In this document: positions 14,126-44,285 of the stretch, piece by piece
How the letters are laid out: each line of letters opens with the position of its first letter
Position numbering within the stretch: the first letter of the stretch is position 1
Assembly: GCF_040958095.1 (NCBI RefSeq)
Contig: NC_091228.1
Coordinates: forward strand, 8,874,840-8,938,839
Length of the DNA stretch: 64,000 nt
From: Procambarus clarkii
Lineage: Eukaryota > Arthropoda > Malacostraca > Decapoda > Cambaridae
Reading direction: 5' to 3'
Translations under genes and position numbers: made by a program
The notes under the pieces: generated by a model
What the model was told of the DNA's origin: nothing
The model's database searches: none
Seen by the model: only the letters and a program-made list of their open reading frames with translations

Positions 14126-14983
14126 GCCATGCATTCCAACTTCAACAGCATGTTGTGGGGTGCCGATATTGTGTGCCATCACATGTAAACCAACCAAGCC
14201 CACAAATACGTCAACATGGACCAGCATTACACCGTCTAACATACTCTGTCAGATGTAACAACTAAATTTGTGAATTCAAGACCTAATCTATTGCATAACA
14301 CAGTGTTAGTACGAGAAAAACATTACTTACATTCGAAGCCGTGTTTTAAAATGGCGCGGACCTTGGTCTACTGACGCTCCACACTGTGTGTTCGTTTGCG
14401 TATGATGAACGTGTGACAATTTACTACAACAATTATTTAATTATTCTTATTCTTTATTTTACTATTTTTAGGGTACATGAAATTTCCAACTTATTTGCAC
14501 ACAATAATATAATTGCATTGTCATAACCTTTATATATTACGGAAAATACGATGACATGAACGAAGTCAAAGTGAAGTTGAAGTCAAAGTCATTCGCCGAA
14601 CGTATTAGTCATTTTTTTTCTCCCAAACGATAGGGGATAACAAATCCACAGAGCATATAAGTGTAGAGTAAAGTCAATTTTATTCAGGAAAGTACATACA
14701 TAGTTGATTTACAAACATAATGTTGGATTTATAGATAGAGCTAGTGCATACAATACCTAAAGCCAATATAGTAGACATATAGCATTTCAGGCAACCGGGC
14801 AGTATATATGGACCCCTTACTCAAATATCTGAATATGTTAGATATTAAGTCCCTGCACATACTCTCATGTGTATTTTATATATATAAAACGCTGCACTGT
14901 AATGTCAATCCTGACCCTAAAAGCTTCCTAGAAGGTTGTAACAGATCCCATGAGCACCACACCAGAAACAAATACCTATAGGT

Positions 14984-16050
14984 GTGTACTGGTGCCTTAT
15001 AGTGTGTACTCGTACCTTATGGTGTGTACTGGGGCCTTATGGTGTATACTGGTGCTTTATGGTGTGTACTGGTGCCTTATGGTGTGTTCTAGTGCCTTAT
15101 GGTGCGTACTGGTGCCGTATGGAGTGTACTGGTGCCTTATGGTGTGTACTGGTGCATTATTGTGTGTACTGGTGCCTTATTGTGTACTGGTGCCTTATGG
15201 TGTGTACTGGTGCATTATGGTGTGTACTGGTGCATTATGGTGTGTACTGGTGCATTATGGTGTGTACTGGTGCATTATGGTGTGTACTGGTGCATTATGG
15301 TGTGTACTGGTGCCTTATGGTGTGTGTTCTGGTGCCTTATGGTGTGTACTGGTGCCATATGATGTGTACTGGTGCATTATGGTGTGTACTGGTGCCTTAT
15401 GGTGTGTACTGGTGCATTATGGCATGTACTGGTGCCTTATAGTGTGTACTGGTGCATTATGGTGTGTACTGGTGCCTTATGGTGTGTACTTGTACCTTAT
15501 TGTGTATACTGGTGCCTTATGGTGTGTACTGGTTCCTTATGGTGTGTACTGGGGCTTTATTGTGTGTACTGGTGCTTTATGGTGTGTACTGGTGCCTTAT
15601 GGTGTGTTCTGGTGCCGTATGGTGCGTACTGGTGCCTTATGGTGTGTACTGGTGTCTTATGGTGTGTACTGGTGCCTTATGGTGTGTACTGGTGCCTTAT
15701 AGTGTGTACTGGTGCTTTATGGTGTGTACTGGTGCCTTATGGTGTGTACTGGTGCCTTATGGTGTGTAATGGTGCCTTATGGTGTGTACTGGTGCCTTAT
15801 GGTATATACTGGTGCCTTATAGTGTGTACTGGTTCCTTATGGTGTGTACTGGTGCCTTATGGTGTGTACTGGTGCCGTATGGTGTGTACTGGTGCCTTAT
15901 GGTGTGTACTGGTGCCTTATGGTGTGTACTGGTGCCTTATGGTGTGTTCTGGTGCCTTATGGTGTGTGTTCTGGTGCCTTATGGCGTGTACTGGTGCCTT
16001 ATAGTGTGTACTGGTACCTTATTGTGTGTACTGGTGCATTATGGTGTGTA
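14984..16050. repeat. 20-bp minisatellite, about 53 units
   Basis: Unit GGTGTGTACTGGTGCCTTAT with common variants (GCATTAT, GCTTTAT, TTCTGG). Because 20 is not a multiple of 3 and the unit has no stop, all three forward frames stay open for 87-250 codons; these are artefacts. The array interrupts the C-terminal frame of a LINE (14811-14975) right after AACAAATACCTAT, and downstream joins the piggyBac remnant at 16059. The duplicate, 43219-44285, has exactly the same length. Confidence 0.97.
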
Positions 16051-19279: not shown

Positions 19280-20104
19280 GAAAAATTCCACAAATCAACA
19301 ACCCTGTTACTGACCCAGTATTTACCCAAGTCTTTCCTAAATCTAAACTTATCCAATTTATACCCATTGTTTCGTGTTCTATCGTGTATTGACAATTTTA
19401 ATACCCTATTAATATCCCCTTTGTTATATCCATTCAGGAAATTGTGGTTGATCTCGAACCCATTGATAATGTGACGACTTATACAGAATTTTGTAACTAT
19501 ATCATCAAGATTGTAACCAGCTTAGCTAAATGTAGTGTGGGGTTCAGTCCCTAAGCCCATATATGTGCCTCTCTAACCATTCAACCCGTTCTCACACAAG
19601 ACAGCACATATATGACTTAATGCTTAAAGTCAATATGTTGAATATGAATTAGTAAATATGTGATATATTCCCAGTTACTTTTTTTTCCAAGGCCCAAACT
19701 CTTCCTCACGTACCAACTTGCGTCTCACAGTACCCGTCCGTCAACCTAGATAGCAGAATAGTCGTGATTGGTTCAATTATAAGGAAAATTGTACTTTTCA
19801 GGTCCCACATGGGTTGTGAAATTTACCTACTATTGTCCATGCTCTTAGAATATTATAGATCAGCTACTTCCTATTGAAGGTTCGTAGTTTTGTTTTGAGA
19901 AATATTAGTTGTTCTTAGTAAATTATAATAAGCACTAAAAATTATTACATAGAATAACAGTCCTTCACCAATCAATATTATATACCATAGTTGGTGCTTT
20001 ACAAATCTTTAAAGGATGTTTTGTAGGAATGCTAACAGAAAACGATGGTTCATTGGAATGTCTATGGGGTAAACTACTCTAAACAGGATGGTATTGTGTC
20101 TACT

Positions 20105-20405
20105 ATACCAACTACAGGATCGGTATATTGTCCACTACCACCTGTTAGGTGAGTAAGGGGTGCAATACCACCCACAGGATGGGTATGAGGGTCACATCCA
20201 CCCAGAGGATGAGTATGGGGATCACATCCACCCACAGGAAGGGTATGGGGTCCAATACCACCCACAGGATGAGTATGGCGTCCACTACAACCCACAGGAT
20301 GGGTATGGGGCTCCAACCACCCATAGAATGGGTATGGGGCTCCAACCACCCATAAAATGGGTATGGGGTCCAATAACACCCACTGGATGTGTATATGGCT
20401 TCCAT
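20105..20405. repeat. 30-bp minisatellite in left arm (about 9 units)
   Basis: Units of CCACCCACAGGATGGGTATG plus GGGTCCAATA with drift. The mirror image is at 35693-35993 with the same unit number, so this array did not change size after the arms formed. Open frames on both strands are artefacts. Confidence 0.92.
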
Positions 20406-20419
20406 TGCCGCGCGTCGAG

Positions 20420-21160
20420 CTCGAAAACCGCAGCATTCATCTCAGAACCATGCCTATTTCACGCAGATTCCTTAATAAACGTAAAAGTTTTATATGTCAC
20501 AAGAAAGATAGAAATATAAGCTTCATTCTAAATACCTTACCATGGGCATATTTAAATTTAAACCGAAGATACGTGTACTTTTATAATAGCCGAGCTCCGA
20601 CCCCGGACAGATCGATCGACCGAGCAACTCTCTCTCAGAACAATGTTTATTTCACGTGAATTCGTTAGTAAACATATATGTTTTATATGTCTCAAGAAAG
20701 ACAGACATATAAGCTTCACTTTAAACACTTTACTATAGACATATTTAAATTTCTAATGAAGATTATTGTATATTAAAAATTACGGAGCTCCCACCCCGTA
20801 CAGACTGAACGACAGAGCAACTCTCTCTCAGATCAATGTTTATTTCACGTAAATTCGTTAATAAACACAAATGTTTTATAAGTCTTAAGCAAGATAGAAA
20901 TAAGAGCTTCATTTTAAATACATTACAATAGACATATTTATAGCTCAAGTGAAGATACATATGTTTTTATACTAGCGCTCAGTAGCTTGTCGGGCATGGA
21001 GTGCAGACGCCTACGCACTTGCCGATATATTGTATAATTAACAAAGATACGCTAATAAAGCCTAAAATCTTATATGCCTCCAGAAAGACCGATATATGAA
21101 CATTATTATAATTGCACCAAATGAAATATATCATGTTCGAGAACAAAGATATATCAATTT
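20420..21160. repeat. Degenerate satellite of about 190 bp, left arm
   Basis: Three to four monomers sharing GAGCAACTCTCTCTCAGA, ATGTTTATTTCACG, TTATATGTC(T)CAAGAAAGA and ACATATTTAAATTT. More diverged monomers are recognisable near 21765-21850 and 22280-22560. The mirror copies are at 34940-35680 and 33540-33820. The monomers differ widely from each other, while each is nearly identical to its mirror partner. Confidence 0.75.
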
Positions 21161-21855
21161 TAAATTAAGTTTCGACTCTCTCTCGGGTGAGAGAGATGGG
21201 GCGACTCTCGCCCCATCTATTGGAGATTCTGTGCACTAAATACCCAAAGCTACTCAAACCCTCCTAGCATTATTTAAGTAATGAAGTAATATGGTATATT
21301 TACTCACTATAATGTGGGTGCTGAATGCAGAACATGAGAAAACATATATTTACTCCAAACTAATATAATTTCATTATGAAATAAGTAGCATCAAAGGAAG
21401 TCGATGGTCCAAGCAGCAATGTTGTGGAGCGACTTATCCAAGATATATCGTTGTTTGGAAAGTGTTTGTTGGCATATCCAGTTGTCGCACTTCTCTGCTC
21501 AAATTATCACAAATTTAAATTATAATGTTAACAAGTAGAATACGTATTTTTAATAAAATCTAACATAACTAGCCAGAAAACATTTAACATTAATTAAAAA
21601 ATATATGTTTGGAAGTTAAATCGACTTCATAGGACAATGGTTTTGTTATATATACTCGTTATTCGTTGACATGCGTTCGCTACTTAAACTACCATGTACT
21701 GTACTTATGTAAAATCTCCCATGTTTCTTCGCTCATCTCACCGAACCCTACAGGCTCTGTGATATATTGTTTAATTAATTGAGATTCACAAATAAAGCTA
21801 ATAATTGTATATGTTATCAAAAAGGCAGAGCTTAGTTTAGTTCAATTATTATGCA
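21160..21855. other. AT-rich stretch of left arm, no gene
   Basis: Contains a short imperfect palindrome around 21180-21225 (CTCTCTCGGGTGAGAGAGATG, then GGGGCGACTCTCGCCCC). Otherwise AT-rich with no frame or motif I can support. Mirror: 34240-34940. Confidence 0.6.
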
Positions 21856-22145
21856 CTCCATACCCATCCTATGGACGATAGTGGAGTGTTACAGAGGCAC
21901 ATAATGGGCTCAGGGAATGAGCCCCACAATTCATATAGCCAAGCAAGTTATAATCTTGATAAGCTAGTTACAAAAGTCAATACACATTGTCACATCAACA
22001 ATGGGCTCGAGACCGACCACAAGTACAGTTTATAATTTAAGCAACTGATTTATATGGAGGGCTAGTGTCACAATTGATATGTTTATCCTACACATAACCC
22101 CCTCTCCCCCATCCAATGGGCAGGGGTGGATAGGTTACAATCAAG
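21855..22145 (-). mobile_element. LINE 3'-UTR copy (5'-truncated insertion)
   Basis: On the minus strand, CACCCCTGCCCATTGGATG through AACCCATTG (here GAGCCCATTG) to ATGGGTATGGAGTGCATAAT is the full 3' UTR of the LINE whose coding end lies at 37563-37874. The plus-strand mirror in the right arm is 33955-34250. A related pair, facing each other, is at 22686-22800 (+) and 22812-22960 (-), and another lies at 23400-23610 (-). Confidence 0.75.
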
Positions 22146-23138
22146 TTTTTTTTTTGCGTTTTATTCAGAGATTAGGTCTTATTAGGTGAGGAAAGATATT
22201 CATATTTTAAAGAAGGTTTCTTGGCTGATGATCTCCATTGATGGAAAATATACAACCTTTTGAAAATCAATGTTAGTTTGATCTAGATATTGTAATTAAC
22301 GAAAGTATTTATGTCATCAGAAAGGTAGAAATATAGGATACATTTAAAATCCTTTGTCATAAATATAACTGAAGTGAAAACGAAGATATATTCGTTTTGA
22401 TAGTTACTTGATGGCTTGCTCTGAGAGTGTGAAGCCCTGCACACCACCCAATAAATTGTATAATTAGTTTCCATATATTTTAATTAATCTTAAAAATCTA
22501 TATGTCAGAAGAAAGGAAGATGTAGTTGTTAATGTGACAACATTTAAAAATATATATCTCTTAAGTTAAATAAATAATACCACCTTATCGCCGGTGTCCG
22601 GACACATGAAAATTACCTAGGTATCAGTATCCAGCCAGGCGGGGATCACAGGCTGCACAATACTGATAAATTATATAATGCACTACTTGTGGTCGATCTC
22701 GAACCCATTTATGATTTGACGACTTATAGTGAATTTTGTAACTAGCTCATTAAGATTGTATCTTGCTTAGCTAAATGAATTGTGGGGTTCGGTCCATTCA
22801 TTTTCTTTCTTTATTATGCACCCCATAATACCCATCCTGTGGGCGGTGGTGTAAAGGATTACAGAGGCACATAATCGGTTCAGGAACTGAACCCTCTAGT
22901 TCGTTTAGCTAAGCAAATAACAATCTTTTGACGCTAGTTACAAAATTATTAATGTACACATACTTATGCATACATGTACATATACATACGTATACATATA
23001 TAAATACACATACATATTTAATCACCCACACAAATACACACATCAGTAATTTTTTGTGTCACAAGTGATTCAACAAGAGGCTCACAACAGTCACTATACA
23101 AGGCACTTTACATTTATGAGGAGTCGCACAGTTACTAG

Positions 23139-23312
23139 TCTTGCTGCACACCCACCCAACTGGGCGGCAGCTTTACAGTCATGTGCTCCACACCCACCCA
23201 ACTGGGCGGCAGCTTTACAGTCATGTGCTCCACACCCACCCAACTGGGCGGCAGCTTTACAGTTATGTGCTCCACACCCACCCAACTGGGCGGCAGCTTT
23301 ACAGTTACCTGG
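23139..23312. repeat. 42-bp minisatellite, 4 units, end of left arm
   Basis: Unit GTGCTCCACACCCACCCAAC plus TGGGCGGCAGCTTTACAGTCAT in the plus direction. Same unit as the 22-copy array at 29912-30838, inverted. The left arm ends with this array. Confidence 0.95.
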
Positions 23313-23399
23313 TGTTATTCTTCACCTATATCTTTTTCTGGTTAATCCCTATTTACATTATGCAGTTCAGGTTTCGTCGCCATACTATAGTTTTTAGTT

Positions 23400-23725
23400 T
23401 AGTTAATTTATCACATAATGGGTTCAGGGACTGAACACACAATTTATTTATCTAAGCAAGTTACAATCTTGAGGAGCTAGCCACAAAATTCATAACACAT
23501 CGTCACATCAACAACATGTGTTCGAGATCGACCACAAGTACAGTTTCTAAATTAAGCAAATGCTATATGTGGAGAGCTAGTGTCACAATTGATATGTTTG
23601 TCCTGCACATTTCCACAGTAGTTTGCTTGGGTTTGCTTGGGTACATAGACAAGAGACTGAACTTCAGCACCCACATACAACACACAAGGGGATGCTCTGA
23701 GAGAGAGAGAGAGAGAGGGAGAGTA
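23400..23725. repeat. LINE tail, small LINE fragment and (GA)n
   Basis: 23400-23610 is another minus-strand LINE 3' UTR copy. 23631-23690 reads IDKRLNFSTHIQHT, a match to the LINE at 31532 (LDKRLNFSTHIQHI), in the plus direction. It is followed by GAGAGAGAGAGAGAGA at 23700-23717. Confidence 0.7.
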
Positions 23726-24228
23726 AAAATATCCACTGAGGTCTGATTAAGTTCTTTTGGGGACCTTAATCATTAGGACGTTCAATGATTAACGCAAAGT
23801 GAGGCGTATTCAGATGGTATATTGACAACATTCAGCATATCTCATAATGACCTAGTAGTACTTGGTGCACAAATACCTTTTCCAAAGGAATCGCAAAACA
23901 TAATTAAACACAACTGTACCGTACAGTGTTATATATTTATTTCAGTTTGAACAATTTTTAACATTAAAGGATAAATCCTTTAATTGGTTGAAATTGGTTT
24001 TAATATTCGAAATCTAATTTGTTGATGTTAAATAATATAAGGTTCAAATTTATTAAGATACATACTTTAAAAACTATTTCTATTTGAAATTTAAATAACA
24101 TTAAAAGAGTACAGAATATAACAAATACCGACTATATAAAAGACCTGATAGTTGCAGCACTTAATTATGCTATTGTAACACATTGAAAGTAATAACATTA
24201 TTTGATTCAGCAAAGCATTTGGTAAGGT

Positions 24229-24277
<49 letters not shown>

Positions 24278-24280
24278 TAT
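24229..24280. repeat. (TAA)n microsatellite
   Basis: About 17 uninterrupted TAA/ATA units. Confidence 0.97.
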
Positions 24281-24304
24281 TAATTAAGTATTTTAAATTA
24301 TAAT

Positions 24305-25011
24305 TTACAACTTGCTAGCGCACAAGAAACAAATCCACGAATCATCATTACATTCTGTAACACCTACACATGATCCATGGTGCCAAATATTGCAACGTTC
24401 ACAGCATACCATCAGCTTCAAATCATTTAGCTTTCTGCAAATGCAGTACACTTCCATCGAGCATGACCGGATGATTCGTTTTCTTCTCAGTGTCTGAGCT
24501 GCAGGGAATGAGATGAGACACTTTTCTTTAAAGTTCTCTTGAAGATGTTGTCTCATTCTGCATATCATACGAGGTTCACCGGATCTACACCACTTGCAAG
24601 TGATGCAGCAAACGCCACAGCATATACCCCACTCATACTTGAGTCCTTGTGTCTGCTGACATTCATTATATTGCATATCAGCTTATCATCCTGGCAATTA
24701 GCAAGAGCATACAAGATAACTTCAGTAGATTTGGATGGTAATTTATGCCTGGTGTCGTATATGTTAATTTGTCCAGTTACTCCAATGTTGGAAACGGTGG
24801 CCCAGTGACAACCATCAACTTGGATAATTTGAATAAATTCACCAATTGTAACTGGCCAGGAGAGGTCCCGCTACCACGCTGGGTCATGAAGGCCTTCTAG
24901 GCTTGGCACAGTTTGTTTGATGAGGTCACATGCAGATTTTATATGAAGGTCAGAGAGCTGTACATTTGTTCCAATGTTCATTATCTCGTCATTTGTTAAA
25001 TAATTTAACAT
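24305..25011 (-). pseudogene. Transposon-borne Ulp1/C48-like peptidase with PHD finger, broken
   Basis: Minus strand, read in two frames. The first part has the Ulp1-like core of a family common in animal transposon proteins: LSDLHIKSACDLI, then IQVDGCHWATVSNIG (catalytic His) and INIYDTRHK (catalytic Asp). Where the catalytic Asp-Cys-Gly is expected it reads SSMSGVYAVAFAASL, so Cys appears replaced by Ser. A TAG stop lies at 24871-24873 and a frameshift near 24565. The second frame (24305-24570) continues RMRQHLQENFKEKC and ends in a complete C4HC3 PHD finger: YCIC, CERC, WHHGSC, CFLC. PHD fingers read histone tails. Here the protein is presumably an element-encoded accessory or transposase-associated factor. 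Confidence 0.65.
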
Positions 25012-25381
25012 TGTCGAATGTGAAGCACTGTTATCACTCTCCTTATTGTTGCATTGGTGTGAGGAGTGGCAGTGATTGGTTCAGTTTATTTTCTTTTTTT
25101 AAATAGGGACATATATTTGTACTGCAGATACCAGTACAGTTGCACCGTTTCTTTATATATTTTATACTTGGGTTAGCAAGGCGAGACGCTTCTCTTAACG
25201 TGATACTGTTGGTATCAAATAGAAATAGTTTTTAAAGTATGTATCTTAATAAATTTGAACCTTATATTATCAACATCAACATATTATATTATTTAACATC
25301 AACAAATTAGATTTCGAATGTTAAAACCAATTTCAACCAATTAAAGGATTTATCCTTTTTAAAGGATTTAATTAAAGGATT

Positions 25382-26325
25382 TGACACAAAAATCAGTATG
25401 AAAATTACCTCGGCTGAGGATATTGAAAAACTTCAAGCTGATATTATTAAAGTTTTCGACTGGGCATCAGAAAATAACATGATGTTTAACAGTGATAAAT
25501 TCCAGGTACTCAGGTACGGTAAAAATGAGGACCTTAAACATAATACAGAGTACAAAACACAATCAAATGTACCCATAGTAGGAAAACAGCATGTAAAGGA
25601 TTTGGGAATAATAATGTCTGACGACCTAACGTTTAAGGAGCATAACCAAGCAAATATTGCGACAGCCAGAAAAATGATAGGATAGATTACGAGAACTTTC
25701 ATATCCAGGGATCCCATCACAATGGTTGTACTCTTCAAGTCACTTGTGTTGTCCCGTCTTGAGTACTGCTCAGTACTCACTTCCCCCTTCAGAGCAGGAG
25801 AGATTGCTGAAATAGAGGGAATACAGAGAACATATACGGCACGCATAGACGCAATAAAGCACCTAAATTATTGGGATCGTCTCAAAGCCCTCCAAATGTA
25901 CTCACTAGAAAGAAGACGAGAGAGATATCAAATAATATACACCTGGAAGATACTGGAGGGCCAAGTACCAAATCTACACAGTAAAATAACAACGTACTGG
26001 AGTGAACGATATGGAAGAAAATGTAGAATAGAACCAGTGAAGAGCAGAGGTGCCATAGGCACAATCAGAGAACACTGTATAAACATCAGAGGTCCGCGGT
26101 TGTTCAACGTCCTCCCAGCAAGCATAAGAAATATTGCCGGAACAACCGGGGACATTTTCAAGAGGAAACTAGATTTATTCCTCCAAGGAGTGCCGGACCA
26201 ACCGGGCTGTGGTGGGTATGTGGGCCTGCGGGCCGCTCCAAGCAACAGCCTAGTGGACCAAACTCTCACAAGTCAAGTCTGGCCTCGGGCCGGGCTTGGG
26301 GAGTAGAAGAACTCCCAGAACCCCA
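25382..26325 (+). pseudogene. CR1/jockey-type LINE, 3' third, inserted into the inverted repeat
   Basis: Starts within the catalytic box (DTKISMKI, the remainder of a FADDTK motif) and runs to a stop at 26308 through HVKDLGIIMSDDLTF, LSRLEYCS, RGPRLFNVLPASIRN and VGLRAAPSNSLVDQ. The frame is uninterrupted except for one TAG at 25683-25685, probably a mutated Trp codon (KMIG*ITRTF). 5'-truncated, as is normal for LINE insertions. It splits the right repeat of the 23906-26402 element at an AAAGGAT sequence, so it is younger than that element. Confidence 0.85.
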
Positions 26326-26479
26326 TCAACCAGGTATCCTTTAATGTTAAAAATTGTTCAAATTGAAATAAATATTTAACACTGTACAGTACAGTTGTGT
26401 TTGCCTGCCACAGCCTGCCACAGCCTTGAGAGCACGGAGCCTCTCTCTACATTGGCGACCCAGTCTGGCTAAACATTGC

Positions 26480-28350
26480 GGTACAGTAGAACCTCAAGAC
26501 CAAGGTATTTGTATCTGGTAACTAGTCGAGCAGAGAGCCATCATCCAACTGCATTTTGCGATCGGCCCCACCCCGTCTGGGTGGGTGTCGGTTCAGGATC
26601 TTTGTTTTCTCTACTGAGATGACTAAGCATAGTTCCTGACATGTGGACAATACAGAGTTCAGAACATTTTGGGTGTTGGTATACCCATTGGTGTGGATCA
26701 GTATATCATCCACATAGCTAATGATGTGTTTGCTGGACCTTCTAGTTACAAAGTTTAAAAGTGCACTGATTAACACATTGAACAGAGTAGGACTGAGGAC
26801 ACCTCCCTGTGGAGTGCCAAGTTCAAAAAATCTCGTTACACTCCTATGCCCATGGAACAGTACAGATGACTTCCTGTTGGATAGATAGCCTCTTATTCAC
26901 CGTAGAAGCCATCCTCCAACATTTATTTTAGCAAGTTCTCTCAGAATGACGTGTGGGTTAGCAATGTCAAAGGCTGACTTAAGATCTAGGAAAGTGGTGT
27001 ATGACCTATCAGTATGCAGGGTGAGGAATGTGGTAATACAGTGATGTACACTCTTTCCATGCATAAAGCCATATATCTGGGGAGACAACATATTAATAAT
27101 TTTGTAAAGGAGACGGTTGAGAACCCTCCTCTCAAGACACTTATAGAGACAACTAGTGAGGGAGATTGGGCGAAAAGCACTCGGCTGGTGAGGTTTAGGA
27201 ATGGGAATAATAACACTGTTGGTCCATGACTTAGGAAGCTCCCCAGTTACATAGCTCATATTATACAATTGAAGAAAGGTATTCCCTGGAACTAGCAGAA
27301 GCATATGCAGTATGCCGTCAGTAACTCCATCCTCCCCGGGTGATGTAGCTTTGCCTTTATGTAGAGCAGAATCTAGTTCGTATTCAGTAAAAGCATGTCA
27401 CAGTCATCCTCTTAATGAAGCATGAAGTCAAGGAACCTTGCCCTATCAGTATATCTATCATTTAATTCATTCTGCGAGGGTAGAGGAAGACTGTCAAAGC
27501 TGGAAGTCGTGGCCCAAGCACCAACAAGCTCATTTGCTCTGTGCAGAGGATTAGGGTACGAGATCTCTGCAGCATTTTTCCCTTTGATCTTGTTGATATC
27601 CTTCCATGCCCGACTTAGTGGCGTGTGAGAATTGAGACTACGGACAAAAGTTTCCCAGTCTATCTGCCTCAGCTCCACCATACGTTCCCTGGCCTTAGCC
27701 AGAGCCGCTTGAAAGAGCCGAAGCATTTCAGCAGTGCGGGTCCTTCTACAAGCTAGTCCAATTATTCTGGCAGTGCGTTTTAGTGTCTGCAATTTAGAAT
27801 CATTATAATAAACATAAGTGCTATGACCAGTGTAATTTGGGTTACGTGGCCTGGACGATGGATCAAGTGATTCTATAAACTGGTTGATAGTACCTGTGAG
27901 CTCATTGTTAAAATCTTCAACTGATGAAGGCTCAGATGAACTGCACCAATCTGACACATGAGCAACAAGATTGTCTCGCTGATTGATGGGCACAGCCAGC
28001 CTCTTCCGCTTGAACACTCCACCAGGGAGGATAGAACTGCCAATGCTTACAGTGGCTAATATGGCCAGATGATCAGACGCCATAACTGGCACTATTGACG
28101 AGGCGCACACGGTGTGGGAGACGTTGAAACCAAGACATAGACCAAGAATACCCCCGTAGATATGCGTCGGTTCAAGGTCACCCACAATCTGTGCATCATC
28201 GTGACTACCTAATAGTGACACTAGTTGCCGTTACGATTACTGAACTGCGAATTACCAATATTCCTATGTCTAGCGTTATAATCACCTTTAATGATGGTAG
28301 GCTCAGTCTGAATACAGATAGGAAGGTCAGCATAATTAAAGTTACAAGGA
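26480..28350 (-). pseudogene. I-clade-like LINE: endonuclease and reverse transcriptase remnants
   Basis: Minus strand. Near 28290 the endonuclease motif IIKGDYNARHRNIG is readable, then ASDHLAI near 28070, then a linker to 27412. The RT follows in another frame: SPGEDGV near 27330, FRPISLTSCLYKCLERR near 27200, LDLKSAFDIANP near 26980, GTPQGGVLSP near 26810, and the active-site box SYVDDIL near 26710. Stops or frameshifts occur around 28215, 27410 and 26897. Retained order and motifs place it among I/Nimb-type elements; RNase H is not seen. The 3' end beyond 26520 is lost. Confidence 0.75.
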
Positions 28351-28423
28351 GTCGATTATTTAGTACATAGTTGTTTTTCTCTTAAACTGGATGATAGAGG
28401 GGGAGTCTTTAACGTGATTGGGA

Positions 28424-29176
28424 ATACATACATACATACATACATACATACATACATACATACATACATACATACATACATACATACATACATACATACA
28501 TACATGCATGCGTACATCCATACATACATACATACATACATACATACATACATACATACATACATGCATGCATACATACATACATACATACATACATACA
28601 TACATACATACATACATACATGCGTATATAAATACATGCGTATATACATGCGTATATAAATACATACATACATACATTACATACATACATACATACATGC
28701 ATGCGTACATACATACATCCATCCATCTATCCATACATACATACATACATACATACATACATACATACATACATACATACATACATACATACATACATGC
28801 ATGCATACATACATACATACATACATACATACATACATACATACATGCATGCGTACATACATACATCCATCCATCTATCCATTCATACATGCATACATAC
28901 ATACATACATACATACATACATACATGCATGCATACATACATACATACATACATACATGCATGCATGCATGTATGCATGCATACATACATACATACATAC
29001 ATACATACATACATACATACATACATACATACATACATACATGCATACATACATGCATGCATGCGTACATACATACATCCATCCATCTATCCATTCATAC
29101 ATGCATACATACATACATACATACATACATACATACATACATACATACATACATACATACATACATACATACATAC
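28424..29176. repeat. (ACAT)n microsatellite, about 750 bp
   Basis: ACAT repeats with islands of GCATGCAT, GTACATCC, ATCCATCTATCC and GCGTATATAA. The island block GCGTACATACATACATCC and ATCTATCC recurs at 28700, 28850 and 29065, showing higher-order duplication. All long frames here (Met-Tyr-Val-Cys or Thr-Tyr-Ile-His repeats) are artefacts. Confidence 0.98.
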
Positions 29177-29590
29177 ACGTCCAGCCAGCATATAGCTATT
29201 TCGGGACAAAATCCAATACAGTTTATATTGGTGAAACGCCACTGTGATGAGGAGTTGAAATATCACAGGAACTGTAGGTTAATGTGTGACATAAGTGAGG
29301 TTAGATGAGGCATCTACAAGCATCAGCTGGAGGCTGATGGAGTGTTGTGGAGGCTGGTGGTACTATGTCCAGATGTTGGAGGGTGGATTTGACTCTCCCA
29401 CCCTCCCTCCCCCTCCCCCCCCCCACACATTGACCGCAGTACGTCTAAGGTTACTTTCCACTCTCGCTTACCAAGGGTATAACCCCCGCCCCTCCCAACA
29501 CACACACATGCATCAGATTCTTAACTTACACTATTTATGATTTACCAATTTATGTTACTACACTGACTGTCAATTTCACAATATTGTATA
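29177..29590. other. No recognisable feature
   Basis: Includes a C-rich run (29400-29425) and a short CA run (29498-29510). No frame, motif or repeat I can assign. Confidence 0.5.
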
Positions 29591-29601
29591 AACTTTGATG
29601 A

Positions 29602-29907
29602 ATCGCTCGTCTATGGGTCATCCAATAATGTTAGCAGACTTCTAGATGTTACCACTGCTAGGTTTAGGCTCAGCTACAAGTACTTCTGGAAGTTTGTAAC
29701 ATCTGATGATGTAGATTTGACTAAATGTAAACTCTGTCAGCAGAACTATTCGCATACTTTGCGTCATTATATAATGGAATGTGAAAAATCGCGGAATTTA
29801 AAGATAACAACATCAATAGTGTCCATGAAATGTGTAAGTACTTCATTCATAATGATGTGCTGCTCGAAATCTTAGCGAAGTATCCAAAATTTGCTTACTG
29901 TAGGTAA
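29602..29907 (+). pseudogene. LINE C-terminal zinc-binding segment
   Basis: Reads SSNNVSRLLDVTTARFRL, LTKCKLCQQNYSHTLRH, MECEK, then after a one-base frameshift near 29800 continues EILAKYPKFAYCR and stop. The CxxC...H...C pattern is the C-terminal knuckle of an I-type LINE, clearly related to 37563-37874. The 42-bp minisatellite begins directly after the stop codon. Confidence 0.8.
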
Positions 29908-29911
29908 TGCA

Positions 29912-30838
29912 TACACATGACTGTAAAGCTGCCGCCCAGTTGGGTGGGTGTGGAGCACATGACTGTAAAGCTGCCGCCCAGTTGGGTGGGTGTGGAGCAC
30001 ATGACTGTAAAGCTGCCGCCCAGTTGGGTGGGTGTGGAGCACATGACTGTAAAGCAGCCGCCCAGTTGGGTGGGTGTGGAGCACATGACTGTAAAGCTGC
30101 CGCCCAGTTGGGTGGGTGTGGAGCACATGACTGTAAAGCTGCCGCCCAGTTGGGTGGGTGTGGAGCACATGACTATAAAGCTGCCGCCCAGTTGGGAGAG
30201 TGTGGAGCACATGACTGTAAAGCTGCCGCCCAGTTGGGTGGGTGTGGAGCACATGACTGTAAAGCTGCCGCCCAGTTGGGTGGGTGTGGAGCACATGACT
30301 GTAAAGCTGCCGCCCAGTTGGGTGGGTGTGCAGCACATGACTGTAAAGCTGCCGCCCAGTTGGGTGGGTGTGGAGCACATGACTGTAAAGCTGCCGCCCA
30401 GTTGGGTGGGTGTGGAGCACATGACTGTATAGCTGCCGCCCAGTTGGGTGGGTGTGGAGCACATGACTGTAAAGCTGCCGCCCAGTTGGGTGGGTGTGGA
30501 GCACATGACTGTAAAGCTGCCGCCCAGTTGGGAGAGTGTGGAGCACATGACTGTAAAGCTGCCGCCCAGTTGGGTGGGTGTGGAGCACATGACTGTAAAG
30601 CTGCCGCCCAGTTGGGTGGGTGTGCAGCACATGACTGTAAAGCTGCCGCCCAGTTGGGTGGGTGTGGAGCACATGACTGTAAAGCTGCCGCCCAGTTGGG
30701 TGGGTGTGGAGCACATGACTGTAAAGCTGCAGCCCAGTTGGGTGGGTGTGGAGCACATGACTGTAAAGCTGCCGCCCAGTTGGGTGGGTGTGGAGCACAT
30801 GACTGTAAAGCTGCCGCCCAGTTGGGTGGGTGTGCTGC
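29912..30838. repeat. 42-bp minisatellite, 22 units, inner end of right arm
   Basis: Unit CATGACTGTAAAGCTGCCGC plus CCAGTTGGGTGGGTGTGGAGCA, with variants such as GGGAGAGTGTGG and GTGCAGCA. 42 is a multiple of 3 and the unit lacks stops, so 170-322-codon frames are open on both strands. They are not genes. The left arm has only four units. Confidence 0.97.
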
Positions 30839-31007
30839 AAGACTAGTAACTGTGTGACTCACCATAAATGTAAAGTGCCTTGTATAGTGACTGTTGTGAG
30901 CCTCTTGTTGAATCACTTGTGACACAAAAAATTACTGATGTGTGTATTTGTGTGGGTGATTAAATATGTATGTGTATGTATATATGTATACGTATGAATA
31001 TGTACAT

Positions 31008-31008
<1 letters not shown>

Positions 31009-31038
<30 letters not shown>

Positions 31039-33121
31039 TGCATATACAAGAATGTACATAAGGAATGTGAGGATACAATTATGGTAATTACAGTCTTGTA
31101 AAGCCACTAGCACGCGCAGCGTTTCGGGCAGGTCCTTAATCTAAGAAAATTTTAAGGAGGTAAATACTTGCAAAATTTATAGACAAAAAAATGATAACAG
31201 ATTACATGGAATGAAAAAAAAAAAAAAAAGATGAGAGAAAATTATAGGTACAGTATATTAAAGCACATAGGTAGCTATGATTGATTGCAATGACAGCTTA
31301 AAATGGTAGTTGACAACAAATTGGTAGGCACAATACAGCAGAAACAATATAAGATTGATTGCAATGACAGCTTGAATGGTAGTTGACAAAAATTGGTAGT
31401 CACAATACAGCATATGGCTAGCACATAAAAGAAGACAGCAATGAACACAATGATAAGGTTTGATATTACATAAAAATTAGGAGATTGTGTACCACTAGGT
31501 ACAGAGCAAATTTAAAGCTCAGTGTAGGAAACTAAATAGATGAAGTTAGGTACTTTTTGGTTTTGCTTTTAAATAAGGCAAAAGTTTTACAGTTTTTCAA
31601 TTCACTAGGGAGTGAGTTCCATAGACTAGGTCCCTTAATTTGCATAGAGTGTTTACACAGATTAAGTTTGACCCTGGGGATATCAAAGAGATATTTATTT
31701 CTGGTGTGGTGATAATGGGTCCTATTACATCTGTCCAGGGAGAGTTTCAGAGCATGGTTTGCATTTAAGAACAGGGTTTTGTAAATGTAGTTGACACAAG
31801 AGAATGTGTGGAGGGAGTTAATATTTAGCAAGTTTAGAGATTTAAATAAGGGAGCTGAGTGTTGTCTGAAAGCAGAGTTAGTTATTATTCTGATAGCAGA
31901 TTTTTGCTGTGTGATGATGGGCTTAAGGTGGTTTGCAGTGGTAGACCCCCATGCACAGATACCATAATTAAGATAGGGGTATATTAGTGCATAATATAGT
32001 GAGAGGAGAGCAGAGTTAGGAACATAATATCTGATTTTGGAGAGTATACCAACTGTCTTAGAGACTTTCTTAGTTATGTGTTGAATGTGGGTGCTGAAGT
32101 TGAGTCTCTTGTCTAGGAATAGGCCAAGAAACTTGCCATCATTTTTATTACTGATGTTAATGTTGTCTATCTGTAGCCGAATTGCATTTGATGATTTGCT
32201 TCCAAATAAGATGTAGTAAGTCTTTTCGATGTTTAATGTTAGTTTGTTCGTTGACATCCATAAGTGGACTTTTTTTAATTCATTATTCACAACATTATTT
32301 AGTGTATGTGGGTTGAGGTTTGAGTAGATAAGGGTAGTATCGTCAGCAAACAATATAGGTTTGAGAATATTAGAGACATTAGGCAGATCGTTTATATATA
32401 TAAGAAATAGAAGAGGTCCTAAGATGCTGCCCTGTGGCACTCCAACGGTAATTGGTAGAGTGGAAGAAGTTGTATCATTGATGGTTACATATTGGTGTCT
32501 GTCACTAAGATAGGATCGGATGTAGTCAAGGGCAAGGCCTCGGATTCCATAATGCTGGAGTTTAAGTAAGAGGTAGTTGTGATTAACAGTATCAAAGGCT
32601 TTTCTTAGGTCAATGAAGAGTCCAATCGGAAACTCATTTTTGTCAAGGGCTGAGTAGATAATGTCAAGGAGACTAATGATTGCATCATTGGTACTCTTTT
32701 GGGACCGGAAGCCAAACTGGCAGGGGCTGAGTATGTCGAATTTTACGAGGTAGGAATAGAGCTGTTTGTAAATAATTTTTTCAAATATTTTTGATAGAAT
32801 GGGTAGATTTGATATTGGTCTATAATTGTTTATGTCCGCCGGATTGCCTCCTTTATGGACTGGCGTTACTCTTGCTTTTTTGAGGATATCAGGGAAGGTG
32901 TGACACTCTATAGATTTGTTGAACAGTAGTGCTATGGGTGGGGCAAGGGCATGGGAGGCTCTCTTGTACACAATGGACGGAATTTCACTGGTGTTCCCTG
33001 CCTTGGTTTTTAGAGAGTGTATGATGGACACAACATCTGCCGGGCTGATTGGTGAAAGGAGAAGAGAGTTTGGATAGCTGCCTGAGAGATATGTGTTAAT
33101 ATGTGTCTGAGTATGTGTTTA
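31009..33121 (-). mobile_element. LINE insertion in the right arm (CR1/L2-type), absent from the left
   Basis: The left-arm sequence GTACATGTATGCATAAG (mirrored, near 22970) is unbroken. In the right arm the same point is split by 2.1 kb that begins with a (TTTA)n tail (31009-31038, the element's 3' end) and ends near 33121. The tail of short repeats instead of poly(A) fits CR1/L2-type elements. The target duplication is very short or absent (shared ACAT). The 5' end is truncated, with the frame already open at the boundary. Confidence 0.85.
31532..33031 (-). CDS. LINE reverse transcriptase, N-terminally truncated
   Basis: 499 codons from the first Met. The frame actually stays open upstream to about 33120 (NTYLSGSYPNS...), so the Met is arbitrary. 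RT landmarks in order: NYRPISNLPILSKIFEK (69-85), FIDLRKAFDTV (139-149), GVPQGSILGP (197-206), FADDTT (228-233) with both catalytic aspartates, DKRLNFSTHIQH, and the C-terminal HHTRNKYLFDIPR ... LWNSLPSELKN. No stop or frameshift interrupts it. The endonuclease domain is missing, so it cannot move by itself. The intact frame points to recent insertion. Short relatives at 7380, 18999 and 47223 are older copies. Confidence 0.93.
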   Translation of the reverse strand: MSIIHSLKTKAGNTSEIPSIVYKRASHALAPPIALLFNKSIECHTFPDILKKARVTPVHKGGNPADINNYRPISNLPILSKIFEKIIYKQLYSYLVKFDILSPCQFGFRSQKSTNDAIISLLDIIYSALDKNEFPIGLFIDLRKAFDTVNHNYLLLKLQHYGIRGLALDYIRSYLSDRHQYVTINDTTSSTLPITVGVPQGSILGPLLFLIYINDLPNVSNILKPILFADDTTLIYSNLNPHTLNNVVNNELKKVHLWMSTNKLTLNIEKTYYILFGSKSSNAIRLQIDNINISNKNDGKFLGLFLDKRLNFSTHIQHITKKVSKTVGILSKIRYYVPNSALLSLYYALIYPYLNYGICAWGSTTANHLKPIITQQKSAIRIITNSAFRQHSAPLFKSLNLLNINSLHTFSCVNYIYKTLFLNANHALKLSLDRCNRTHYHHTRNKYLFDIPRVKLNLCKHSMQIKGPSLWNSLPSELKNCKTFALFKSKTKKYLTSSI

Positions 33122-33174
33122 CATGTATGCATAAGTATGTGTACATTAATAATTTTGTAACTAGCGTCAAAAGA

Positions 33175-34255
33175 TTGTTATTTGCTTAGCTAAACGAACT
33201 AGAGGGTTCAGTTCCTGAACCGATTATGTGCCTCTGTAATCCTTTACACCACCGCCCACGGGATGTGTATTATGGGGTGCATAATAAAGAAAGAAAATGA
33301 ATGGACCGAACCCCACAATTCATTTAGCTAAGCAAGTTACAATCTTAATGAGCTAGTTACAAAATTCACTATAAGTCGTCACATCATAAATGGGTTCGAG
33401 ATCGACCACAAGTAGTGCATTACATAAATTTATCAGTATTGTGCAGCCTGTGATCCCCGCCTGGCTGGATACTGATACCTAGGTAATTTTCATGTGTCCG
33501 GACACCGGCGATAAGGTGGTATTATTTATTTAACTTAAGATATATATATTTTTAAATGTTGTCACATTAACGGCTACATCTTCCTTTCTTCTGACATATA
33601 GATTTTTAAGATTAATTGAAATATATGGAAACTAATTATACAATTTATTGGCTGGTGTGCAGGGCTTCACACTCTCAGAGCAAGCCATCAAGTAACTATC
33701 AAAACGCATATATCTTCGTTTTCACTTCAGTTATATTTATGACAAAGGATTTTAAATGTAGCCTATATTTCTACCTTTCAGATGACATAAATACTTTCGT
33801 TAATTACAATATCTAGATCAAACTAACATTGATTTTCAAAAGGTTGTATATTTTCCATCAATAGAGAGCATCAGCCAAGAAGCCTTCTTTAAAATATGAA
33901 TATCTTTCCTCACCCAATAAGATCTAATCTCTGAATAAAACGCAAAAAACGACTTGATTGTAACCTATCCACCGCTGCCCATTGGATGGGGGAGAGGGGG
34001 TTATGTGTAGGATAAACATATCAATTGTGACACTAGCCCTCCATATATGTCAGTTGCTTAAATTATAAACTGTACTTGTGGTCGGTCTCGAGCCCATTGT
34101 TGATGTGACAATGTGTATTGACTTTTGTAACTAGCTTATCAAGATTATAACTTGCTTGGCTATATGAATTGTGGGGCTCATTCCCTGAGCCCATTATGTG
34201 CCTCTGTAACACTCCACTATCGTCCATAGGATGGGTATGGAGTGCATAATAAATG
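33175..34255. repeat. Right-arm LINE tails and satellite (mirror of 21855-22960)
   Basis: 33175-33280 (+) and 33290-33425 (-) are facing copies of the LINE 3' UTR. 33540-33820 is degenerate 190-bp satellite. 33955-34250 (+) is a complete 3' UTR copy. Order and orientation are the exact mirror of the left arm. Confidence 0.75.
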
Positions 34256-34799
34256 AACTAAACTAAGCTCTGCCTTTTTGATAACATATACAATTATTAG
34301 CTTTATTTGTGAATCTCAATTAATTAAACAATATATCACAGAGCCTGTAGGGTTCGGTGAGATGAGCGAAGAGACATGGGAGATTTTACATAAGTACAGT
34401 ACATGGTAGTTTAAGTAGCGAACGCATGTCAACGAATAACGAGTATATATAACAAAACCATTGTCCTATGAAGTCGATTTAACTTCCAAACATATATTTT
34501 TTAATTAATGTTAAATGTTTTCTGGCTAGTTATGTTAGATTTTATTAAAAATACGTATTCTACTTGTTAACATTATAATTTAAATTTGTGATAATTTGAG
34601 CAGAGAAGTGCGACAACTGGATATGCCAACAAACACTTTCCAAACAACGATATATCTTGGATAAGTCGCTCCACAACATTGCTGCTTGGACCATCGACTT
34701 CCTTTGATGCTACTTATTTCATAATGAAATTATATTAGTTTGGAGTAAATATATGTTTTCTCATGTTCTGCATTCAGCACCCACATTATAGTGAGTAAA

Positions 34800-36000
34800 T
34801 ATACCATATTACTTCATTACTTAAATAATGCTAGGAGGGTTTGAGTAGCTTTGGGTATTTAGTGCACAGAATCTCCAATAGATGGGGCGAGAGTCGCCCC
34901 ATCTCTCTCACCCGAGAGAGAGTCGAAACTTAATTTAAAATTGATATATCTTTGTTCTCGAACATGATATATTTCATTTGGTGCAATTATAATAATGTTC
35001 ATATATCGGTCTTTCTGGAGGCATATAAGATTTTAGGCTTTATTAGCGTATCTTTGTTAATTATACAATATATCGGCAAGTGCGTAGGCGTCTGCACTCC
35101 ATGCCCGACAAGCTACTGAGCGCTAGTATAAAAACATATGTATCTTCACTTGAGCTATAAATATGTCTATTGTAATGTATTTAAAATGAAGCTCTTATTT
35201 CTATCTTGCTTAAGACTTATAAAACATTTGTGTTTATTAACGAATTTACGTGAAATAAACATTGATCTGAGAGAGAGTTGCTCTGTCGTTCAGTCTGTAC
35301 GGGGTGGGAGCTCCGTAATTTTTAATATACAATAATCTTCATTAGAAATTTAAATATGTCTATAGTAAAGTGTTTAAAGTGAAGCTTATATGTCTGTCTT
35401 TCTTGAGACATATAAAACATATATGTTTACTAACGAATTCACGTGAAATAAACATTGTTCTGAGAGAGAGTTGCTCGGTCGATCGATCTGTCCGGGGTCG
35501 GAGCTCGGCTATTATAAAAGTACACGTATCTTCGGTTTAAATTTAAATATGCCCATGGTAAGGTATTTAGAATGAAGCTTACATTTCTATCTTTCTTGTG
35601 ACATATAAAACTTTTACGTTTATTAAGGAATCTGCGTGAAATAGGCATGGTTCTGAGATGAATGCTGCGGTTTTCGAGCTCGACGCGCGGCAATGGAAGC
35701 CATATACACATCCAGTGGGTGTTATTGGACCCCATACCCATTTTATGGGTGGTTGGAGCCCCATACCCATTCTATGGGTGGTTGGAGCCCCATACCCATC
35801 CTGTGGGTTGTAGTGGACGCCATACTCATCCTGTGGGTGGTATTGGACCCCATACCCTTCCTGTGGGTGGATGTGATCCCCATACTCATCCTCTGGGTGG
35901 ATGTGACCCTCATACCCATCCTGTGGGTGGTATTGCACCCCTTACTCACCTAACAGGTGGTAGTGGACAATATACCGATCCTGTAGTTGGTATAGTAGAC
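34800..36000. repeat. Right-arm satellite and 30-bp minisatellite
   Basis: 190-bp monomers at 34940-35680 and the 30-bp array (CCTGTGGGTGGTATTGGACC units) at 35693-35993 mirror the left arm. From 36000 to 36516 the sequence is unique AT-rich DNA up to the element terminus, with no gene seen. Confidence 0.8.
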
Positions 36001-36899
36001 ACAATACCATCCTGTTTAGAGTAGTTTACCCCATAGACATTCCAATGAAACATCGTTTTCTGTTAGCGTTCCTACAAAACATCCTTTACAGATTTGTAAA
36101 GCACCAACTATGGTATATAATATTGATTGGTGAAGGACTGTTATTCTATGTAATAATTTTTAGTGCTTATTATAATTTACTAAGAACAACTAATATTTCT
36201 CAAAACAAAACTACGAACCTTCAATAGGAAGTAGCTGATCTATAATATTCTAAGAGCATGGACAATAGTAGGTAAATTTCACAACCCATGTGGGACCTGA
36301 AAAGTACAATTTTCCTTATAATTGAACCAATCACGACTATTCTGCTATCTAGGTTGACGGACGGGTACTGTGAGACGCAAGTTGGTACGTGAGGAAGAGT
36401 TTGGGCCTTGGAAAAAAAAGTAACTGGGAATATATCACATATTTACTAATTCATATTCAACATATTGACTTTAAGCATTAAGTCATATATGTGCTGTCTT
36501 GTGTGAGAACGGGTTGAACCATTTAGGTTACAGGGCAAAAACATAAAAACAAAGGTAACTGCAGAAGGCCTATTGGCCCATACCAGGCATGCAGCTCCTA
36601 TCTATAACAGATAAACACTAAGTACTACCTAATTAACTCAATGTAACCTACCTAACCACCAAAATGTCAATCCATATCTTTTATTTTAAACAATGCTGTT
36701 TTGTTGACCAAATTGTATTTTTACTCTTTTTCTGTCATGTTTCTCCCACCCCTGTTTTTTCCCTTTTTTCTTATTTTTTCTCAACATAATTCATACTTTA
36801 ATTAGGCGGATCAGGACATCACCTGATCAAACACATCAAACATCGTTTGACCACCATCAAACACACACATTTCGTGTGTGTTTGACGCTCACTGATATG

Positions 36900-41158: not shown

Positions 41159-43218
41159 AAACACTGGGGCCATAGAACGGCTATTTAATCCCCTTGAACG
41201 GACCTGTGCATGGGCCACTGAGGCATCGAAAAAAAACATAGACCGGCTTGGGAAAAAAGCAAAATAGCCGGTCTATGGCCCGGCTGATGGCTGTGCATGG
41301 ATGGCTAATGGCTGTTAGTTATGGAGCTAGGTTAGACTATGTATGTTTAAATCTCTGATTTAAACAGAGCCAGTGTTCAGTCAAATAACTGAATTTATCA
41401 AATCTTATCCTTGTATAATATACAAGCTGATGTGAGATCCCTGTCTACAGGTGGACTGGAACTATTATCCAGTAGGCAGTCTACTGTATTTTATCAAACC
41501 CTTATTAGTATAATAGATCTCGTAATAATTTTGCAAAAATAATGGCATTTACTATTTTTAAAAGATTATTAAAAAATTTACAGATATGGTGCATTCGGAA
41601 GACAAACCCAATTTTTCACTTTTGACAATTGAGCACCTGCTACATCCAGATTCTAGGGAGGAAAGGAAGGACGATCTTACTGGATCCCATAGCCTCTCCG
41701 AGGCACAAACCAGGCTTTTACACAACCCCCCCCCTGCACCCGAGCTTTTTAAAATAGTAAATGCCACTATTTTTGCAAAATTATTACGAGATCTATTATT
41801 CTAATAAGAGTTTGATAAAATACAAACCCTGGGGCCATAGAACGGCTATTTAATCCCCTTGAACGGACCTGTGCATGGGCCACTGAGGCATGGAAAAAAA
41901 ACATAGACCGGCTTGGGAAAAAAGCAAAATAGCCGGTCTATGGCCCGGCTGATGGCTGTGCATGGATGGCTAATGGCTGTTAGTTATGGAGCTAGGTTAG
42001 ACTATGTATGTTTAAATCTCTGATTTAAACAGAGCCGGCTAATGGCTGTTAGTTATGGAGCTAGGTTAGACTATAGGCTAGGCTAGGTTAGAGCCAGTGT
42101 TCAGTCAAATAACTGAATTTATCAAATCTTATCCTTGTATAATATACAAGCTGATGTGAGATCCCTGTCTACAGGTGGACTGGAACTTCTATCAACTAAT
42201 CCATACATCAAACCTGTCCCTTACAGCCCACAATCTATCATTAGGAAAACCATGTGAGAAATCTTTAAGGAATTCTGATAAAGAAAGAGATCTAGGGGTG
42301 GTTCTATATAGAAAACTATCACCTGAGGACCACATAAAGAACATTGTGTGAGGAGCCTATGCCATGCATTCCAACTTCAACAGCATGTTGTGGGGTGCCG
42401 ATATTGTGTGCCATCACATGTAAACCAACCAAGCCCACAAATACGTCAACATGGACCAGCATTACACCGTCTAACATACTCTGTCAGATGTAACAACTAA
42501 ATTTGTGAATTCAAGACCTAATCTATTGCATAACACAGTGTTAGTACGAGAAAAACATTACTTATATTCGAAGCCGTGTTTTAAAATGGCGCGGACCTTG
42601 GTCTACTGACGCTCCACACTGTGTGTTCGTTTGCGTATGATGAACGTGTGACAATTTACTACAACAATTATTTAATTATTCTTATTCTTTATTTTACTAT
42701 TTTTAGGGTACATGAAATTTCCAACTTATTTGCACACAATAATATAATTGCATTGTCATAACCTTTATATATTACGGAAAATACGATGACATGAACGAAG
42801 TCAAAGTGAAGTTGAAGTCAAAGTCATTCGCCGAACGTATTAGTCATTTTTTTTCTCCCAAACGATAGGGGATAACAAATCCACAGAGCATATAAGTGTA
42901 GAGTAAAGTCAATTTTATTCAGGAAAGAACATACATAGTTGATTTACAAACATAATGTTGGATTTATAGATAGAGCTAGTGCATACAATACCTAAAGCCA
43001 ATATAGTAGACATATAGCATTTCAGGCAACCGGGCAGTATATATGGACCCCTTACTCAAATATCTGAATATGTTAGATATTAAGTCCCTGCACATACTCT
43101 CATGTGTATTTTATATATATAAAACGCTGCACTGTAATGTCAATCCTGACCCTAAAAGCTTCCTAGAAGGTTGTAACAGATCCCATGAGCACCACACCAG
43201 AAACAAATACCTATAGGT

Positions 43219-44285
43219 GTGTACTGGTGCCTTATAGTGTGTACTCGTACCTTATGGTGTGTACTGGGGCCTTATGGTGTATACTGGTGCTTTATGGTGT
43301 GTACTGGTGCCTTATGGTGTGTTCTAGTGCCTTATGGTGCGTACTGGTGCCGTATGGAGTGTACTGGTGCCTTATGGTGTGTACTGGTGCATTATTGTGT
43401 GTACTGGTGCCTTATTGTGTACTGGTGCCTTATGGTGTGTACTGGTGCATTATGGTGTGTACTGGTGCATTATGGTGTGTACTGGTGCATTATGGTGTGT
43501 ACTGGTGCATTATGGTGTGTACTGGTGCATTATGGTGTGTACTGGTGCCTTATGGTGTGTGTTCTGGTGCCTTATGGTGTGTACTGGTGCCATATGATGT
43601 GTACTGGTGCATTATGGTGTGTACTGGTGCCTTATGGTGTGTACTGGTGCATTATGGCGTGTACTGGTGCCTTATAGTGTGTACTGGTGCATTATGGTGT
43701 GTACTGGTGCCTTATGGTGTGTACTTGTACCTTATTGTGTATACTGGTGCCTTATGGTGTGTACTGGTTCCTTATGGTGTGTACTGGGGCTTTATTGTGT
43801 GTACTGGTGCTTTATGGTGTGTACTGGTGCCTTATGGTGTGTTCTGGTGCCGTATGGTGCGTACTGGTGCCTTATGGTGTGTACTGGTGTCTTATGGTGT
43901 GTACTGGTGCCTTATGGTGTGTACTGGTGCCTTATAGTGTGTACTGGTGCTTTATGGTGTGTACTGGTGCCTTATGGTGTGTACTGGTGCCTTATGGTGT
44001 GTAATGGTGCCTTATGGTGTGTACTGGTGCCTTATGGTATATACTGGTGCCTTATAGTGTGTACTGGTTCCTTATGGTGTGTACTGGTGCCTTATGGTGT
44101 GTACTGGTGCCGTATGGTGTGTACTGGTGCCTTATGGTGTGTACTGGTGCCTTATGGTGTGTACTGGTGCCTTATGGTGTGTTCTGGTGCCTTATGGTGT
44201 GTGTTCTGGTGCCTTATGGCGTGTACTGGTGCCTTATAGTGTGTACTGGTACCTTATTGTGTGTACTGGTGCATTATGGTGTGTA
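43219..44285. repeat. 20-bp minisatellite, about 53 units (in A')
   Basis: Same length and variant order as 14984-16050, differing at one visible base (GGCGTGTACTGG for GGCATGTACTGG). Open frames of up to 250 codons in all three forward frames are artefacts. Confidence 0.97.

Follow-up and report, generated by a model that had tools for sequence, protein, structure and literature searches.

Drosophila FB elements carry very long inverted repeats composed of tandem repeats and are flanked by 9-bp target-site duplications. According to the available portions of the reports that describe it, Galileo, a Drosophila element of the P superfamily, has long repetitive arms and 7- or 8-bp duplications and is represented by many copies without a transposase (PMC4168063, PMC3573991, PMC3688188), with arms of ~0.3–1.2 kb, the longest of which is 1,260 bp in D. 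mojavensis (PMC3573991). Tetris of Drosophila virilis, as far as the accessible part of its report describes it, is a non-autonomous element with three structurally complete copies, modular arms of tandem repeats that give rise to satellites, a variable middle, 8–9 bp duplications, and a transposase that was not found; homogenisation of the arm repeats is named there as a possibility (PMC4079207). Among open-licence papers, we found no crustacean foldback element and no crayfish element with inverted ends and target-site duplications. Here, we report that a block of 16,935 bp (positions 19582–36516) within a 64,000-nucleotide stretch of Procambarus clarkii DNA (NC_091228.1; this whole stretch is hereafter the window, and positions refer to it unless a contig is named) is very probably one copy of a large, young, non-autonomous family of foldback DNA transposons in which sequence is copied from one arm to the other.

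The block is assigned to the foldback-type DNA transposons because it has long inverted arms with tandem repeats and because many insertions with target-site duplications, as well as empty sites, were identified. By description only, it resembles FB in its very long inverted arms of tandem repeats, although FB has 9-bp duplications; also by description only, and from the accessible part of the source, it resembles the Tm1 Mutator/Foldback family of root-knot nematodes, which presents the foldback form outside insects. It shares with Galileo the long repetitive arms, the 7- or 8-bp duplications, and the many copies without a transposase; however, the arms are 3.7 kb here, the palindromic target of Galileo was not seen, and a P-type transposase was not found in the searches given below. 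Like Tetris, it is non-autonomous, with modular tandem-repeat arms, a variable middle, and no transposase found, whereas its 2,159 exact ends contrast with the three complete copies and the 8–9 bp duplications of Tetris. The foldback form itself is known, the closest kind being the Foldback/Galileo type, and it is the arm-to-arm copying that constitutes a new result for a foldback family.

The termini of the element, CAACCCG and CGGGTTG, are mirror images of each other and are flanked by the 7-bp duplication AACCATT on the left (19575–19581) and on the right (36517–36523). The locus itself is a tandem duplication with a period of 11,296 bp. Once the element and one AACCATT are removed from unit 1, an alignment of the two units over 11,500 bases shows 16 differences and 6 gap openings (99.86% match; compared up to 38418). 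The tandem duplication provides an empty site for comparison: unit 2 carries a single AACCATT with continuous flanks (47809–47815), as does an older duplicate (7993–7999). Most simply, the insertion would postdate the tandem duplication. The original prediction, made from the letters of the window, had given these coordinates, the 7-bp AACCATT duplication, the inverted CAACCC...GGGTTG ends, and both empty sites, and all of them are as read here.

To place the element in its genome, the window's own assembly (4,027,284,227 bases; 4.03 Gb) was searched. The exact 33-base terminus occurs 2,159 times (1,080 forward and 1,079 reverse), and its reversed control occurs 0 times in the same genome; a scan of viral contigs for the terminus also returned 0 exact matches. 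A search of the host genome with an element end had been proposed in the original prediction, and the first 501 bases yielded at least 40 full-length matches at ~100% (40 of 1,758 candidates scored), with the terminus recurring at different places. All 30 loci that were cut out start at the shared terminus, and their flanks are unlike one another except at duplicated loci (L007 equals L009, and L016 equals a locus on contig C2). Most of these 30 are at least 99% identical to the window's arm over their outer 2 kb. Ends were paired among 99 termini on two contigs, taken from the first 100 listed with one on C3 dropped. Fifty-eight of the 99 form 29 inward-facing pairs with a median length of 15.2 kb: 26 measure 7.1–20.7 kb, two measure 29 and 33 kb, and one of 189 bp, a small rearranged hairpin within another arm and without a duplication, was handled separately. 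The family may number up to about a thousand elements. Ten members were fetched, seven of which have both ends inside the fetched stretch; the right ends of E58a, E39, and E36 lie outside it, and these three are excluded from all arm counts.

Perfect duplications flank all eight elements that were read end to end (the window's copy and the seven complete fetched members), with 7 bp in five and 8 bp in three. Among 28 further end pairs, 7-bp duplications were identified in seven, 8-bp duplications in seven, and none in 14, with an AT-repeat pair (6-base match) scored as lacking one. Ends that are not partners agreed over 7 bp in 0 of 756 comparisons and over 8 bp in four, which trace to one duplicated locus and one telomere-like 8-mer. 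Both length classes are real, since the 7-bp comparison among 8-bp pairs mismatches at 4–6 positions. After duplicated loci are merged and the 189-bp pair is set aside, a duplication is present at 21 of 30 distinct loci (12 with 7 bp and nine with 8 bp). The 29 distinct flanks show weak base preferences only. Crossed duplications were considered as proof of exchange between members, and the one candidate (AGGTTAGG) was discounted for its telomere-like bases.

Several members stand in unusual surroundings. On C2, one element-bearing locus occurs five times between 20.71 and 23.31 Mb, in both orientations, with 20 compared flank bases identical and no target duplication, and a locus at 25.93 Mb recurs inverted at 26.08 Mb, with one of its flanks found again on C37. 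Two members 0.28 Mb apart (C1:12109072 and 12401452) have flanks that are mirror images over 20 compared bases and differ in length (10.1 and 7.1 kb). A larger palindrome centred on the C2:18801006 member was considered and rejected, as the mirrored flank extends over only 18 bp. L053 (C2:62708413–62743801) is an array of termini in the same orientation spaced at ~5.85 kb, and the one unit read comprises an arm and a LINE; arms may here be seeding a satellite. L052 comprises two back-to-back termini separated by the 8-base spacer TGCGAGAA, and in L022 (C35:17820954) the arm stops at 590 bp and is followed by sequence absent from the other elements compared.

The left arm (19582–23305, forward strand) is 3,724 bp long, in keeping with the 3.7 kb originally predicted, and its outer 2.07 kb are strongly homogenised. 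The right arm is the left-arm sequence inverted, broken by a LINE at ~31012–33088 and continuing from 31011 to 29914. Its outer part (33089–36516, reverse) matches the left arm at 98.8% over 3,431 columns, and its inner part past the LINE (29914–31011, reverse) matches at 97.3% over 336 bp and ends in an expanded minisatellite. Mismatches between the two arms number 4 in the outer 2,143 bp versus 34 in the inner ~1,290 bp.

Evidence that one arm is copied from the other comes from an alignment of 16 outer arms from the eight complete elements, in which biallelic variants were scored in ungapped columns. Eleven variants were found in exactly two of the 16 arms, and in nine cases these were both arms of one element; each of the eight elements has at least one such doubleton in its own two arms. 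None of 20,000 permutations with random arm pairings reached nine within-element doubletons. In one element, a 30-bp deletion is private to its two arms. E35 carries a ~330-bp insert at the identical base in both arms; the two copies differ by one substitution and in tail length over the stretch compared, and the exact 41-base junction occurs twice in the genome, once per E35 arm. This insert, which we take from its look to be SINE-like, yielded no tRNA call with ARAGORN. Because two independent insertions at the same base of these two arms, and nowhere else, are not credible, one arm of E35 was copied from the other. In a tree of outer arms, from which E47_R was excluded for its clustered divergent stretches, an element's own two arms are sisters in six of seven elements. 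One arm has been rewritten from the other within the same element, and traces of such copying lie within the outer 2 kb in all eight elements read.

Arm likeness peaks in the outer 2 kb and is patchy farther in. In a tree of the inner arm (2.07 to ~3.5 kb from the end), the arms on the long-minisatellite side of seven elements form one group, and the arms on the other side, next to an Ulp1/PHD relic of the interior, fall outside it; E35 is in the seven-element group by its inner part only, and E57 is represented by one inner arm. In E38, the first side is like the second throughout the inner arm, and in E35 it is like the second up to ~3.1 kb from the end, such that copying reaches 3 kb or more in two of the eight elements. 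A 13-bp indel with adjacent changes, ~2.67 kb from the end, marks the second (Ulp1/PHD) side. It was counted at 100 of 131 places, those listed on C1–C36, with elements defined as facing pairs within 25 kb. Where it occurs singly, it lies beside the interior marker (33 bases of the Ulp1/PHD relic, matched exactly) in 36 of 43 cases, the other seven having no marker nearby, and it is not fixed on the second side, being present at 40 of 98 interior markers on the same contigs. In 13 of 87 elements both arms have the indel, so copying has reached 2.67 kb in about one of seven elements that carry it. Short internal tracts were also observed, for example in one inner arm of E42, and plain gene conversion fits these better than end repair.

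Several observations weigh against this interpretation of the block and its arms. Only 58 of the 99 listed ends pair in the inward-facing orientation, and 14 of the 28 further pairs on two contigs (nine distinct loci after merging) lack a duplication, although such pairs may be recombined copies. No transposase or autonomous copy was found among the frames scanned. The interior marker occurs 222 times versus 2,159 termini, so that readings of the interior cover a minority of members. With respect to the arms, the outer tree does not join those of E38 as sisters, 57 sites distinguish those of E47, 96 variants occur in one arm each (many of them in one E47 arm), and two of the 11 doubletons are shared across elements. 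The smallest between-element distance is 4 (median 10), which is below several within-element distances (2–15, E47 apart). Median divergence is also alike in interiors (0.5–1.3%) and outer arms (0.4–0.6%), and this similar order suggests that the arms are not much younger than the interiors; the value for the inner arms, in which both sides are combined, is left out of the comparison.

The original prediction had offered two readings of the block, a giant non-autonomous foldback transposon or a palindromic amplicon captured at a staggered break. An amplicon formed or captured at the locus, with no transposon involved, would suit a locus that is tandemly duplicated and a family in which some members lie in inverted duplications. 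However, a family with a fixed terminus is not expected from such an amplicon, and a terminus that recurs at about two thousand places with its own duplications and exact empty sites leads us to discard it as exceedingly improbable; the transposon reading is the one that agrees with a terminus found 2,159 times, with 7- or 8-bp duplications of each insertion's own, and with no transposase domain detected in the scanned frames of the window and sister copies. The likeness of the arms might instead mean only that both arms share a very recent origin and have not exchanged sequence since, as could be suggested by the outer 2 kb, in which the window's arm is at least 99% identical to the majority of the 30 loci. 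We consider this hardly tenable given the variants, the 30-bp deletion, and the 330-bp insert that are private to both arms of single elements, and given that the inner arms form side-specific groups; the paired E35 insert contradicts it. It is likewise very unlikely that the block derives from a large gene-bearing element, of Maverick or virus-like type, whose genes have been lost. Its size and long inverted ends would fit, but Pfam yields only reverse transcriptase, LINE endonuclease, and PHD domains besides marginal matches, and no Maverick/Polinton polymerase, integrase, or capsid gene was identified in eight window, 10 sister-copy, and 43 E35 frames. Mavericks are moreover expected to have 6-bp duplications, versus the 7–8 bp of this element.

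If the block is a foldback transposon, the superfamily of its transposase must be considered. The original prediction saw no recognisable transposase, and the Pfam-scanned frames of the window and sister copies bear this out: eight window frames contain no transposase domain, 10 long frames from E35, E47, E38, E5, E58b, and E57 gave reverse-transcriptase, LINE-endonuclease, or nothing, and in the E35 interior, 43 frames yielded LINE and PHD domains, three marginal matches (E 0.012–0.022), and no transposase (frames of at least 45 aa, complexity-filtered, two that span the fetch border excluded; a transposase in short exons could be missed). Ends of the CA...TG type are usual for the P superfamily. 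A Galileo-like membership in that superfamily, with movement by a THAP-type transposase, is possible if doubtful: Galileo, in the accessible parts of its reports (PMC4168063, PMC3688188), likewise has 7- or 8-bp duplications and long arms with internal repeats, but GTANTAC, the Galileo target, is present in 0 of the 22 duplications read. PF21788 and PF21787 also gave 0 genome matches (5 and 8 candidates), although control genomes gave none either, and THAP gave seven matches among 13 candidates, at low copy, two of which are on C1 outside the elements listed there. On balance, we lean slightly towards a different superfamily whose duplications are similar (Mutator-like, hAT, Merlin, KDZ, or an undescribed one), as the foldback form arises in several superfamilies and the nematode Tm1 is called a Mutator/Foldback family in the title of its report. 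Against this, Mutator-like duplications are usually 8–10 bp and those of hAT 8 bp. By analogy, the length of the duplications and the form of the arms suggest a place in the Galileo branch of the P superfamily without proving it.

The interior between the arms (23306–29913) consists of nested repeat remains in which no transposase domain was detected. It includes a nested inverted-repeat remnant (23906–26402) with a 68-bp outer pair and two inner pairs of ~75 bp, within which lie a broken frame related to an Ulp1-peptidase protein of the shrimp Palaemon carinicauda (24568–24870, reverse), this relative being one of two matches to the Ulp1/PHD pieces, and a broken frame with a PHD finger (24308–24682, reverse). 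Ulp1/PHD-type proteins of this kind presumably belong to Ginger transposons. Ginger is characterised by an integrase core and a 4-bp duplication; the scanned interior frames give only Ulp1 and PHD pieces, and the element's own duplication is 7–8 bp. That the relic is the element's own transposase was rejected as the main reading on the grounds that nested inverted repeats enclose it, that its frames in the window are broken, and that its marker was found 222 times versus 2,159 termini. A broken LINE reverse transcriptase (26522–28230, reverse) and an ATAC microsatellite (28424–29177) are common to the sister copies. This composite interior recurs in the complete copies, apart from private insertions and, in two of them (E42 and E57), internal deletions. 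Because the marker occurs 222 times in the genome and in only five of the 29 listed pairs, most family members have a different, shorter, or mutated interior, and an autonomous copy may be among them.

With respect to smaller features of the arms, the inner end of both is a 42-bp minisatellite, with 3.9 copies on the left (23142–23305, forward) and 21.9 on the right (29914–30834, reverse). The left arm also contains a 30-bp tandem repeat (20157–20373, forward; mirror 35716–35941) and a 193-bp tandem repeat (20440–20940, forward; mirror 35158–35658). The LINE within the right arm (31012–33088, reverse) is 5'-truncated, has an ATTT-type tail at 31006–31039, and retains a 528-aa open frame with RVT_1 (31532–33118, reverse). 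This frame is nearly identical to a protein (P0003) of a 1,725-base JGI contig, which may come from a metagenome holding DNA of the same or a near host. Elsewhere in the window, a satellite array at 1–2425 comprises 10.3 copies of a 235-bp unit that are 99% alike, and a 20-bp minisatellite of 53.4 copies is present in each tandem unit (14981–16050 and 43216–44285).

We propose that a transposase supplied in trans would recognise the CAACCC...GGGTTG ends and insert the element at a staggered cut of 7 or 8 bases, the integration being evidenced by the duplications and empty sites. The interior would be a passenger composed of older LINE, microsatellite, and DNA-transposon remains that was probably present in the common founder of the copies read. 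Arm likeness is kept by occasional rewriting of one arm from the other inside the element, presumably either by gene conversion within the element or by repair of one end on the other, folded-back end. Gene conversion between chromosomal arms is the plain reading of this step. A more speculative idea, which we think rather improbable, is that transposition itself regenerates an arm, in that the excised or nicked element folds back and the opposite arm serves as the template for new synthesis of one end, over a tract that runs inward for 2 to 3.5 kb or more. Such end repair would account for the peak of likeness at the ends.

In the available part of the foldback literature, arm likeness is at most called possibly due to homogenisation (PMC4079207). 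Here, the transfer of an insert between the two arms of an element, together with the number of copies that show conversion, makes arm homogenisation directly measurable. If fold-back resynthesis were true, the arms would be reset with every jump, like the long terminal repeats of retrotransposons, and the age of each DNA-transposon insertion could be read from the divergence of its arms. The transposase, in turn, would have to move unusually long non-coding elements. Finally, large elements that can form hairpins and that present 2,159 exact ends are a possible source of rearrangement in this genome, where several of the listed members lie in inverted duplications.

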